NCBI GenBank assembly: GCA_016930255.1
Contig: JAFGHB010000031.1
Span: 1 to 48,265, forward strand
Direction of reading: 5' to 3'
Origin: Methanomicrobia archaeon
Lineage (GTDB): Archaea > Halobacteriota > Syntropharchaeia > Alkanophagales > Methanospirareceae
Length of the DNA stretch: 48,265 nucleotides
Both the position numbers and the translations under genes were made by a program. Below are positions 35,888-46,455 of this stretch, piece after piece; position 1 is the stretch's first letter, and the number at the start of each line of letters is the position of its first letter. The notes under the pieces are model-generated. The model had not been told where the DNA came from. It searched no databases and saw only the letters and a list, made by a program, of their open reading frames with translations.

Positions 35888-37453
35888 TTATTGCAAGCCA
35901 TCGCGGAGCACGATTTCATACAGCTTGTCCATATCGATACTCCCCCGCACGAGGTCTGCTAATTTGTTGTATTCGTTATCCCAATTTATTCCCGCCGTGC
36001 TCTCGCCTCTATTTTTGGCTGCTGAACGTACTGGTACTGCAGTGGGCAATCCTTTCTTCGCCCGTATATAATCGAGAAACGCTTGCCTGAAGTCATCGTT
36101 GTCAAAAATACCGTGGATATACGTCCCAATGACGTTGCCAAAAGCCGCGCCGCCACTTTCGTTCGGCACCGCCTTACCGGAACGCTCGACGATCGTGAAT
36201 GCCGGTTTCACGCCTTCTTCAGAGAAATACGTCCGGCCCATATGTATCTCATAGCCCGCGATTTCGCCCTGGTAAAACGCTAAATCCGCTATCGCACGCA
36301 CCTGGTTCGTCATCTTCAGGTCATGGCTCTCGAAGGTTGTGCGCGCGGGCAGCAAGCCCAGGCCTTCGAGCTCGCCAAGCGTGGATTCCACACCCTCTGG
36401 ATCTATTAAGGACTCGCAAAGCATCTGATAGCCGCCGCAGATGCCAAAGACAACGCACTTGCCGGTTCTCGCCTTCTCCACTATCTCCGACGCGTATCCG
36501 CTCTCTTTAAGATACGAGAGGTCGCTTATCGTATTCTTCGAGCCCGGGATGATTATCACATCGGGTTCGCCCAGTTTATCGCCTTCACCCACATACCGGA
36601 GCAAAACGTCATTCTCCGCTTCTAACGCGTCGAAATCGGTGAAATTCGAGATACGGGGCAACTGAACGACTTTTATCAGTATTTCTCGTTTCTCGCCGTG
36701 TCTCATACCCTTTATCTGCCCCGTTTTGCCAGATAACGATACGGAGTCCTCTTCTTGTATCCTTATATCCTGGAAATAGGGTATGACGCCGAGCACGGGC
36801 TTACGGGTTCGTTTCTCAAGGAACTCCAGTCCCGGCTTGAGTATCTCCAGGTCACCGCGGAACTTATTTATCAGAAACCCCTTCAGTAGCTCTCTCTCGT
36901 CTTCTTCGAGCAATTCAAGCGTCCCCACAATCGAGGCAAATACCCCGCCTTTGTCTATATCGCCGAGGAGCAGTACCGGCGCATCCAGCAGTTTCGCTAT
37001 GCTCATGTTCACAATGTCGTTCTCACGCAGGTTTACCTCTGCCGGGCTTCCCGCACCTTCGATTGCCACGATCTCGTTCTCGCGATCGAGCTTCTCAAAG
37101 CACTCCTTTATGAGTGTCAGCGCGGCCGACTTGTATTCGTGATACTCCTGAGCTGTCATATTGCCCACCGGCCTTCCGCGCACGATGACCTGAGCGCCGA
37201 CGTCGCTTGTGGGCTTCAACAGAATAGGGTTCATCTCCACAGTCGGCTCTTTACCTGCCGCGAAAGCCTGGAACGCCTGCGCTCGCCCTATTTCAAGGCC
37301 GTCTTTGGTGACGTACGAGTTGAGCGCCATATTCTGCGATTTAAATGGTGCAACCCTGTAACCATCCTGCAGGAATATGCGGCAAAGTGCTGCCACTATC
37401 ACACTCTTCCCTACGTGCGAGCCGGTGCCCTGCACCATTATCCTTTTCGCCAT
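35888..37453 (-). CDS. cbiP: Cobyric acid synthase
   Basis: A 521-residue glutamine-dependent amidase that converts four side chains of adenosylcobyrinate diamide to amides. The ATP-binding N-terminus reads IMVQGTGSHVGKSVIVAALC, followed by VAPFKSQNMALNSYVTKDG. The C-terminal CobQ-type GATase has VIIPGSKNTISDLSYLKESG, the nucleophile cysteine in VFGICGGYQML, and the histidine in GTYIHGIFDND. ATG 37453, with AGGGTAAAA upstream, is preferred over 37471. It follows cbiA by 40 bases and ends the block. Confidence 0.95.
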   Translation of the reverse strand: MAKRIMVQGTGSHVGKSVIVAALCRIFLQDGYRVAPFKSQNMALNSYVTKDGLEIGRAQAFQAFAAGKEPTVEMNPILLKPTSDVGAQVIVRGRPVGNMTAQEYHEYKSAALTLIKECFEKLDRENEIVAIEGAGSPAEVNLRENDIVNMSIAKLLDAPVLLLGDIDKGGVFASIVGTLELLEEDERELLKGFLINKFRGDLEILKPGLEFLEKRTRKPVLGVIPYFQDIRIQEEDSVSLSGKTGQIKGMRHGEKREILIKVVQLPRISNFTDFDALEAENDVLLRYVGEGDKLGEPDVIIIPGSKNTISDLSYLKESGYASEIVEKARTGKCVVFGICGGYQMLCESLIDPEGVESTLGELEGLGLLPARTTFESHDLKMTNQVRAIADLAFYQGEIAGYEIHMGRTYFSEEGVKPAFTIVERSGKAVPNESGGAAFGNVIGTYIHGIFDNDDFRQAFLDYIRAKKGLPTAVPVRSAAKNRGESTAGINWDNEYNKLADLVRGSIDMDKLYEIVLRDGLQ

Positions 37454-37493
37454 TTTTACCCTATTTTCCATTCAATTCACTCGTATTTCAGAT

Positions 37494-38897
37494 TCACAAG
37501 CGACATTTCGCAGCTTCTAGGAAACGGAGGAACGCTTTTTCGTTTCCCACAGCATGAAGGTGCGTGTAGGATGCGAGCGCGTTTTCTCTGATGATTCCGT
37601 CCCGCTTGCTCTCTATTCCGACACCTTTTAGAAGTTTATAGGCGAAATCCACACCTGTGTCAGCATTGACATCCAACGTTGAGTAATGGAACTCGTGTCC
37701 CCGGAATCTCTCCCCTTTTCTGAAGAGAAGGCAGTCACTTACAGAGACCGCTTCGACATAACCCACCGCCTGAAGCCTCCCTGTTAGCTTTGCGGACCCT
37801 TTGAATAAGCCGAGCATTTCCCGGCCTTCGAGTTGCTCAAGGCAGTAAAGCAAGCCGCCGCACTCTGCGTAGAGCGGAGTCCCTTGCTGGATCGCCTCGG
37901 CAAGCTTCTCCCTCAAAGAGGCATTCTCTTCGAGCTGTTCTGCGTAAAGCTCCGGGTAGCCGCCACCTAAGTAGAATGCATCAGCATCAGGTAAAGAGTC
38001 CCGAAGCGGAGAGAAGGGGACGATTTCAGCCCCGAAATCTTGCAGGACCTCTAAGTTCTCCGGATAGTAGAAACAGAACGCTTCATCCATCGCTACCCCC
38101 GCTCTGACGCCATCAGCAGCCCTTAATTGGGACCCAGGCTCTGCAGCACTTGGGATCTCAACTTTCGTCGCCTCAAACAAAGCGTCCAGGTCTATATTCT
38201 TCTCTACGAGCCTCGATAGGTCATTCAAGAGGGAGCGGTCAACTTCGTGAGACATGTATAATCCTAAGTGTCTCTCCGGAATTCTCACGGCTTCATCCCT
38301 GGGAATAACTCCAAAAACCCTCGTAACTCCTCTTAAAGAGTCTTCGAGTAGCTCTCTGTGCCGTTCACTTCCCACTCTGTTTAAGACGACACCCGCAAGC
38401 TTGAGCGATGGGTCATAGGTCTTGTATCCGTGGACCAAGGCGGCAACGCTCCCCGCAAGCTTAGAGGCGTCAACAACAAGGACTATCGGTATATCGAGGA
38501 GTTTCGCAAGGTGAGCGGTACTCCCCTCTCCACCGGCGGAAGAGCCATCGAAGAGGCCCATGACGCCCTCCACAACGTTCACCGCAGCCACGTTCATCCT
38601 GAACGTTCGAAGAATGCCAGAAGCCGGCATCATGAACGTGTCGAGATTTCTTGATGACTTTTCTGCGGCGAGTGTGTGTAAACTGGTGTCTATGAAGTCA
38701 GGACCCACTTTGAACGGCTGGACTTCAAGTCCTCGATGACGGAACGCGGCGATAAGCCCGAGAGAGACCGCAGTCTTCCCCACGCCACTCTGCGTCCCCG
38801 CAACTACGAAAGCCGATTTCATACTCGGGCATTTTGTGATGGTCCTCTTAACCTGTTCGAGTCTTTCAGGGCGGATCATGGCTTCTATTCTCGTCAT
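37494..38897 (-). CDS. cbiA: Cobyrinate (or Ni-sirohydrochlorin) a,c-diamide synthase with PII-like leader
   Basis: A glutamine- and ATP-dependent a,c-diamide synthase. Core from residue 26: FVVAGTQSGVGKTAVSLGL, VQPFKVGPDFIDTSLH, and a CobB/CobQ GATase with ECGGLLYCLEQLEG and the final histidine in FRGHEFHYSTLD. Next to cbiP it fits cobalamin synthesis, but methanogen relatives also have CfbB for coenzyme F430 and the two cannot be separated by eye. Uniquely, residues 1-20 (MTRIEAMIRPERLEQVKRTI) match the N-terminus of the PII protein GlnK1 at 14 of 20 positions. There is no stop between them and the core. AGAAGG immediately precedes ATG 38897; the alternative start ATG 38822 has no ribosome-binding site. 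It starts 6 bases after pdxT. Confidence 0.9.
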   Translation of the reverse strand: MTRIEAMIRPERLEQVKRTITKCPSMKSAFVVAGTQSGVGKTAVSLGLIAAFRHRGLEVQPFKVGPDFIDTSLHTLAAEKSSRNLDTFMMPASGILRTFRMNVAAVNVVEGVMGLFDGSSAGGEGSTAHLAKLLDIPIVLVVDASKLAGSVAALVHGYKTYDPSLKLAGVVLNRVGSERHRELLEDSLRGVTRVFGVIPRDEAVRIPERHLGLYMSHEVDRSLLNDLSRLVEKNIDLDALFEATKVEIPSAAEPGSQLRAADGVRAGVAMDEAFCFYYPENLEVLQDFGAEIVPFSPLRDSLPDADAFYLGGGYPELYAEQLEENASLREKLAEAIQQGTPLYAECGGLLYCLEQLEGREMLGLFKGSAKLTGRLQAVGYVEAVSVSDCLLFRKGERFRGHEFHYSTLDVNADTGVDFAYKLLKGVGIESKRDGIIRENALASYTHLHAVGNEKAFLRFLEAAKCRL

Positions 38898-38903
38898 CCT
38901 TCT

Positions 38904-39506
38904 TCAAAGAAAAGTTTCAAGGAAATAATGATGAATTCTTCTATCGTCCGTGAGTTCGGGATGGAACGAGAGCGCAAGTAGATTCCCCTGCTGCGCCGCG
39001 ACGGTGTGCTCATCGAACGTTGCTAAGACCTCCACATTTTCGCAGGTGCGTGTAATCGCAGGCGCTCGGATGAAGACTGCATGAAACGGCTCTTCAAAGA
39101 TGCTCATCTTCAACGACACCTCAAATGATTCACGCTGCCGCCCAAATGCGTTCCGCTTCACCGTTACGTCCATCAAGCCGAGCAGTGGCTGGCCGGTCTT
39201 TGCAACCTCCTCATCGCCCTCTTTCGCCAGCAGGACGAGTCCGGCACAGGTGCCTAAAATTGGTATATCCCGTTCCGCAACAGCCGTTTTGATTTCCTCA
39301 ATGATATGTTCACGCTGCATGAGCCGCCCGATCGTGGTGCTTTCACCGCCCGGAATCACGATGGCGTCGCACGACTCGACCAACCCCCGTTGTTTTATCT
39401 TCAGCACCTCGCCGCGCTCGCCGCGCTCTGCTAACGACTTCTCCAGTGCCACGACGTGCTCCTCTACCGCCCCTTGTATCGCGATTACGCCGATTTTCGT
39501 TGTCAT
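38904..39506 (-). CDS. pdxT: Pyridoxal 5'-phosphate synthase glutaminase subunit
   Basis: A 200-residue glutaminase that feeds ammonia to PdxS for vitamin B6 synthesis. Family motifs are IGVIAIQGAVEEHVVAL, IPGGESTTIGRLM, the nucleophile in GTCAGLVLLAKEG, FIRAPAITR, and the catalytic His-Glu pair in SFHPELTDD. Length normal. pdxS is not in the window. It lies 39 bases after carA and 6 bases before cbiA, on the same strand. Confidence 0.95.
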   Translation of the reverse strand: MTTKIGVIAIQGAVEEHVVALEKSLAERGERGEVLKIKQRGLVESCDAIVIPGGESTTIGRLMQREHIIEEIKTAVAERDIPILGTCAGLVLLAKEGDEEVAKTGQPLLGLMDVTVKRNAFGRQRESFEVSLKMSIFEEPFHAVFIRAPAITRTCENVEVLATFDEHTVAAQQGNLLALSFHPELTDDRRIHHYFLETFL

Positions 39507-43923: not shown

Positions 43924-44262
43924 TTACAACGCCTTTTCTCCCTGCTCCCCTGTTCGTACTCGTATTATATCGTCCAGTGATGAGACGAATATCTTACCAT
44001 CGCCGAATTTGCCAGTTCTCGCTGCGTTTGATATCGCGTAGACGAGAGACTCGACTAACTCATCCTTCACGATCGTTTCAATTTTGACCTTTGGTAGTGT
44101 ATCGACCTCCATGCGTCGTCCCCTAAACTGTAATGCGATGCCTTTTTGCTCCCCTCTTCCTGTTACCTCAGTTATAGTCATTGCAACCTGCCCTTGCATT
44201 TCCATGGCCACCTTAACCTGTTCAAGCCGTTCTGGTCGAATTACTGCTTCGATTTTCTTCAT
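43924..44262 (-). CDS. glnK: Nitrogen regulatory PII protein, GlnK1
   Basis: A 112-residue PII protein that binds ATP/ADP and 2-oxoglutarate and, in the GlnK group, plugs the Amt channel when ammonium is plentiful. It shows MKKIEAVIRPERLEQVKVAM, the T-loop GRGEQKGIALQFRGRRMEVD, the B-loop TGKFGDGKIFV, and RVRTGEQG at the C-terminus. Position 51, the tyrosine uridylylated in enterobacteria, is methionine, so that modification is impossible. GAGGAAAAG precedes the start. It follows amt1 by 27 bases. Confidence 0.95.
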   Translation of the reverse strand: MKKIEAVIRPERLEQVKVAMEMQGQVAMTITEVTGRGEQKGIALQFRGRRMEVDTLPKVKIETIVKDELVESLVYAISNAARTGKFGDGKIFVSSLDDIIRVRTGEQGEKAL

Positions 44263-46116: not shown

Positions 46117-46455
46117 TCACAACGCTTTCTCGCCACTTTCGCCTGTTCTCACGCGAATTACTTCTTCAACGGGCAGCACGAAGATCATGCCATCGCCGAA
46201 ATTCCCCGTGTACGCGCTTTCCCTGATAGTTGCCACCACCTTTTCTGCATCCGCGTCCTTGACCACCACGTTCAGCTGAAGCTTCGGGAGCATATCAACC
46301 GTATAAGCAGTGGCTCGCCACTGGAGTGCTATCCCTTTCTGTTGGCCGCGACCTTTTACTCCTGACACGTTCAACCCCTTGATTCCGATTTTATCGAGTG
46401 CCGCTTTTACATCGTCGAGCTTATCTTCCCGTATGATTGCCTCTATTTTTTTCAT
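46117..46455 (-). CDS. glnK: Nitrogen regulatory PII protein, GlnK2
   Basis: A 112-residue PII protein partner of Amt2. It has MKKIEAIIREDKLDDVKAAL, the T-loop GRGQQKGIALQWRATAYTVD, the B-loop TGNFGDGMIFV and RVRTGESG. Unlike GlnK1 it keeps Tyr51 (start of YTVD). ATG 46455 is chosen over GTG 46467 because GGGGGTGAAAG is its ribosome-binding site. It begins 8 bases after the amt2 stop, so the two are one operon, closed by a hairpin terminator. Confidence 0.95.
   Translation of the reverse strand: MKKIEAIIREDKLDDVKAALDKIGIKGLNVSGVKGRGQQKGIALQWRATAYTVDMLPKLQLNVVVKDADAEKVVATIRESAYTGNFGDGMIFVLPVEEVIRVRTGESGEKAL

Follow-up and report, generated by a model that had tools for sequence, protein, structure and literature searches.

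The locus raises the question of why the reading frame of a cobyrinate a,c-diamide synthase (CbiA) of the vitamin B12 pathway opens with a short stretch resembling the start of the PII protein GlnK. The window, the whole 48,265-nucleotide stretch of DNA analyzed here, is contig G000:C31 from the genome of a methane-oxidizing archaeon of the Methanophagales (ANME-1), a placement based on the named relatives of its cbiA, and carries on its minus strand the gene order amt2-glnK2-amt1-glnK1-carB-carA-pdxT-cbiA-cbiP. The cbiA frame (37494–38897, minus strand) encodes 467 aa, opens at ATG 38897 and begins with MTRIEAMIRPERLEQVKRTITKCPS, followed by MKSAFVVAGTQSGVGKT, the P-loop strand; no stop lies between that ATG and the CbiA core, as an earlier note on this DNA had stated. 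Upstream is pdxT (38904–39506, minus strand), whose stop is 6 nt (AGAAGG) ahead of the leader ATG, with an identical 6-nt spacer in the genome Kmv05 (G022), and downstream is cbiP, encoding cobyric acid synthase (35888–37471, minus strand; likely start 37453; 630.6 bits to NF001989, cutoff 273).

Residue comparison bore out the proposed kinship of the leader, which matched GlnK1 (43924–44262, minus strand; 97.6 bits to Pfam P-II) at 14 of 20 residues, or 14 of 17 within the matching part, and the more distant GlnK2 (46117–46455, minus strand) at 9 of 20 (9/17). The count of seven matching codons that differ only synonymously held as well. In a six-frame translation of the window, the only sites scoring above 7/17 were glnK1, the leader and glnK2, and the chance of a match of at least 14/17 was 5e-16 per site, or ∼5e-11 for the whole window. 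The GlnK-derived part comprised codons 1–17 (MTRIEAMIRPERLEQVK; 38846–38897, minus strand), and the similarity stopped at codon ∼17–20. It was followed by a junction zone with residual cbiA 5′ flank (codons 18–25, RTITKCPS; 38823–38845, minus strand), the breakpoint lying somewhere inside; codons ∼21–25 represent the junction or the native cbiA 5′ flank, and the sequence CCGAG(T)ATG is similar to CCGAGCGATG and TCGAGCGATG found ahead of cbiA in relatives. A possible 4-nt CCAT microhomology was seen by eye at the junction. The 25-mer alone gave a weak P-II hit to profile positions 1–22 (14.8 bits, below the gathering score of 25; Pfam PF00543), and the full cbiA-frame protein gave no P-II hit in Pfam. 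The leader is without the T-, B- and C-loops, which serve trimer formation and ligand binding.

A DNA search with nt 1–113 of the frame against 53 genomes of the order revealed a two-part structure. Leader nt 1–52 matched glnK1 of G035 and G066 with 87% identity (E ∼1e-11 to ∼2e-11), the match ending at nt ∼52, while nt 75/76–113 matched native cbiA starts. The leader DNA matched the G035/G066 glnK1 at 44/51 positions and the window's own glnK1 at only 39/51. Both halves were joined only in the window genome and Kmv05, so that the leader, far from being generally conserved across related cbiA genes, had a single other carrier, the remaining 51 genomes being without it. Intact glnK genes are still found beside cbiA: in G016, G025 and G026, all ANME-1, the order is amt1-glnK1-cbiA, with the closest glnK1 orthologues ∼100 bp upstream of cbiA, and in UBA186 an intact glnK is found in amt-glnK-cbiA-cbiP. 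In Ca. Methanoxibalbensis ujae (G017/L054, 5819–6054), a glnK pseudogene with frameshifts and losses lies upstream of cbiA, with EAIIRPERLEQVK still readable. Taken together, the adjacency in relatives and the chimeric DNA argue that the leader is the 5′ end of a glnK1 formerly ahead of cbiA. Sequence comparison thus strongly supports one of the two options of the earlier note, a scar of a deleted glnK1 that would have been cut at about codon 18 and welded to the cbiA 5′ flank; the window's glnK1 would be an intact paralogue of the lost copy. The same note had placed the lost gene between pdxT and cbiA; an intact glnK in that position was not found among 51 genomes of the family, so the exact progenitor order was not seen, and among the stretches examined cbiA adjoined pdxT only in the window genome and Kmv05.

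In UBA186, the amt-glnK-cbiA-cbiP group (L052, 8034–17258) directly adjoins a cluster resembling nifH-nifI1-nifI2-nifD-nifK, whose genes were named by eye from translations. Other CbiA matches that start early (L053, L055, L067, L072, L106 and others) were considered as carriers of PII-like leaders and rejected, their N-termini not being PII-like.

An assembly chimera or a chance resemblance would also produce such a frame, and all contigs do come from metagenome-assembled genomes, with just two carriers. However, the independently assembled Kmv05 contig shows the identical junction with 7 substitutions, and both the chance probability given above and the E ∼1e-11 match to glnK1 of other genomes speak against coincidence, which leaves this explanation with a negligible probability.

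The deletion would have proceeded as follows. An ancestral glnK1 would have been the immediate upstream neighbor of cbiA, an arrangement that other ANME-1 retain, and would have lost all of its sequence beyond about codon 18, together with the intervening DNA up to a point just short of the start codon of cbiA. The junction is in frame by chance, and the glnK start codon consequently now opens a frame running into cbiA. The cbi locus is deletion-prone in these genomes, as relics and internal deletions occur in G002, G006, G013 and Kmv05. G002 (G002:C71, L180/L162) has cbiA and cbiP relics adjoining glnK2, G006 (G006:C118, L183) a cbiA relic with cbiP intact, and G013 an internally deleted cbiA, while cbiP of Kmv05 (L041, 3834–4617) has lost its middle, equivalent to residues ∼164–424 of the window CbiP. 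The truncation of the cbiA relics looks alike in G002 and G006, which belong to the same genus.

Two further observations concern the present position of the scar. A probable recombination tract covering the end of pdxT, the leader and cbiA (37521–38966, minus strand) was recognized by a jump in identity to Kmv05 (L041), with ∼93% DNA identity inside the tract compared to ∼73–76% in the pdxT flank and ∼75% in the cbiP flank. The rise begins ∼60 nt before the pdxT stop, and dS between the two genomes was 1.38 for pdxT vs. 0.22 for cbiA. Most likely, homologous recombination carried the fused cbiA from one of the two lineages to the other, and the leader therefore would not have been retained independently over a long time in both carriers. 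Either a duplication of glnK1 with reciprocal loss or an import of the scarred cbiA by recombination would suffice to explain why carB-carA-pdxT now separates that cbiA from the intact glnK1. In a check of neighboring genes, a tandem duplication of glnK1-cbiA-cbiP-carB-carA-pdxT followed by reciprocal loss was only suggestive, because carB beside the cbi relics of G002 (L180, 1878–5075) encodes a protein 51% identical to the window CarB and so is not its orthologue; CarB of G059 is 81% identical. This suggests that G002 may hold a second, distant carB lineage. In the window itself, the interval from glnK1 to carB showed no evident cbi relic.

The second option of the earlier note was a working PII-derived leader, and its claim that the peptide had been kept under protein-level selection can be evaluated from the substitutions. 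When differences were polarized with six glnK1 orthologues as outgroups, seven of the eight synonymous differences fell on the GlnK1 branch; the glnK1 branch of the window had 7 synonymous and 1 nonsynonymous changes, and the leader 3 nonsynonymous and 1 synonymous. The claim was therefore not sustained, leader changes being mostly nonsynonymous. Between the window genome and Kmv05, the leader differed by 6 nonsynonymous and 1 synonymous changes (dN 0.109, dS 0.066), compared to a nonsynonymous:synonymous ratio of ∼35:62 for the CbiA body (dN 0.036, dS 0.219, omega 0.16). The nonsynonymous share differed between leader and body (Fisher p = 0.014, on small counts), that of the leader fitting a neutral ratio, and no 25-codon stretch of the CbiA body matched the nonsynonymous count of the leader. 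These counts show a leader that drifts as unconstrained sequence would, next to a constrained CbiA. Nevertheless, 7 changes were observed in the leader where 14.2 were expected under neutrality from the synonymous sites of cbiA (Poisson P = 0.03), so that mild constraint is possible, perhaps on RNA or start context, of a kind invisible at the amino-acid level. The cbiA of Kmv05, which stands beside an internally deleted cbiP, is the copy that yielded the omega of 0.16 against that of the window.

The enzyme itself appears ordinary. The native cbiA/cobB gene (37494–38822, minus strand; ancestral start M26) scored 481.7 bits to NF002204 (cutoff 254) and 479.9 to TIGR00379 (cutoff 261.4). The NCBIfam models did not assign it to CfbB, the Ni-sirohydrochlorin a,c-diamide synthase, the score to NF033195 (455.5 bits) falling under its cutoff of 560. 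The ATPase and glutamine amidotransferase domains are whole, and S37, G40 and K41 of the P-loop and C346 and H446 of the amidotransferase were invariant among 45 sequences. The downstream cbiP is consistent with the predicted activity on cobyrinate. This gene is the only CbiA/CfbB homologue seen in its own genome (95.5% complete), whereas relatives such as G005 have CfbB of the F430 pathway; a CfbB gene may be truly absent or may lie on a missing contig. The AlphaFold model, built with 45 sequences (12 close sequences gave a useless pLDDT of 34), had a mean pLDDT of 90.1 over the body, mostly >90, with a strand at 26–34.

The leader residues correspond to strand 1 and helix 1 of PII. Such a peptide might dock CbiA to GlnK or block GlnK trimers and thereby make a glutamine-using enzyme responsive to nitrogen status; in favor of this, the PII residues are in frame, including the best-kept RPERLEQVK, and the window also encodes an intact GlnK1 and an intact GlnK2. 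On the other hand, amino-acid constraint is absent and the segment IRPERLEQVK already reads ISPERLEEVK in Kmv05, whose leader is nonetheless open, without the stops or frameshifts that the earlier note had set against its reading. In the AlphaFold model, residues 1–8 had pLDDT <50 and residues 3–8, PII strand 1, were not predicted as a strand. No homologue of GlnK1 reached E ≤ 1e-8 in Kmv05 (93% complete), and none of the other 51 genomes in the order has the leader. Assembly of the leader with GlnK, as the earlier note had proposed, thus gained no positive evidence, and a docking or trimer-blocking function is quite improbable; that a PII remnant translated on CbiA continues to contact GlnK or to jam its trimers is very improbable. 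If true, it would mean that a single evolutionary step linked nitrogen status to corrinoid amidation.

Whether the scar is translated is a separate matter. It may be 5′ untranslated sequence only, with CbiA starting at its native ATG 38822 (38822–38820, M26) as in relatives. Among 11 related cbiA genes, 10 of them without the leader, the native start was M26 or near it, and the relatives that start there are also without a strong Shine-Dalgarno sequence at that site. The AGAAGG noted earlier as the only ribosome-binding-like sequence does precede the leader ATG, but as a ribosome-binding site it is poor because no spacer separates it from the ATG and its pairing with the anti-Shine-Dalgarno sequence is weak (-2.5 kcal/mol, compared to -10.1 for glnK1). 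An omega near 1 would likewise be expected of untranslated DNA. However, M26 lies 81 nt from the pdxT stop, badly placed for reinitiation, and ATG 38897 only 6 nt. In Haloferax volcanii, reinitiation was reduced by 40–60% or more at 13–14 nt and was gone at 22–23 nt (PMC10666635). The frame is also open and free of indels in both carriers, weak evidence given the few changes. An untranslated scar is accordingly somewhat unlikely. Since the old glnK ATG is within termination-reinitiation reach of pdxT, the leader tail is probably translated, and it would be if cbiA translation is coupled to pdxT; a translated and passive leader is the reading we moderately favor. Its 25 leftover residues would have no PII action, with the T-, B- and C-loops gone and the sequence drifting, and they would serve solely as a translation-entry adaptor and as an inert N-terminal tail, the cobyrinate a,c-diamide synthase behind them being a normal one.

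As a whole, the locus is likely best explained by a passive deletion scar of glnK1, with no PII role and a tail that is probably translated. It offers a clean, polarizable case in which a lost operon neighbor leaves a new N-terminus, with intact, decaying and fused glnK-cbiA coexisting in ANME-1. It also offers two cautions for annotation: a PII-like leader of 25 aa does not have to be a regulatory domain, and where a sequence differs synonymously from its paralogue, all of those changes may have arisen on the paralogue's branch. How such scars affect translational coupling can be tested.

A literature search returned nothing on a glnK-cbiA fusion. Compared to GlnK/PII proteins (PF00543), the first 17 residues of the leader derive from GlnK, yet most of the fold is missing. 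Compared to the CbiA/CobB family, the window CbiA adds a 25-residue N-terminal tail not found in the other members examined. Deletion-born 5′ fusions, in which co-oriented neighbors are joined once the stop of the first gene is deleted, are known from comparative genomics; the present case differs from these in general in that the upstream gene is reduced to a mere ∼17 residues, and in that the intact, decayed and fused states of one neighbor pair are visible within one family.
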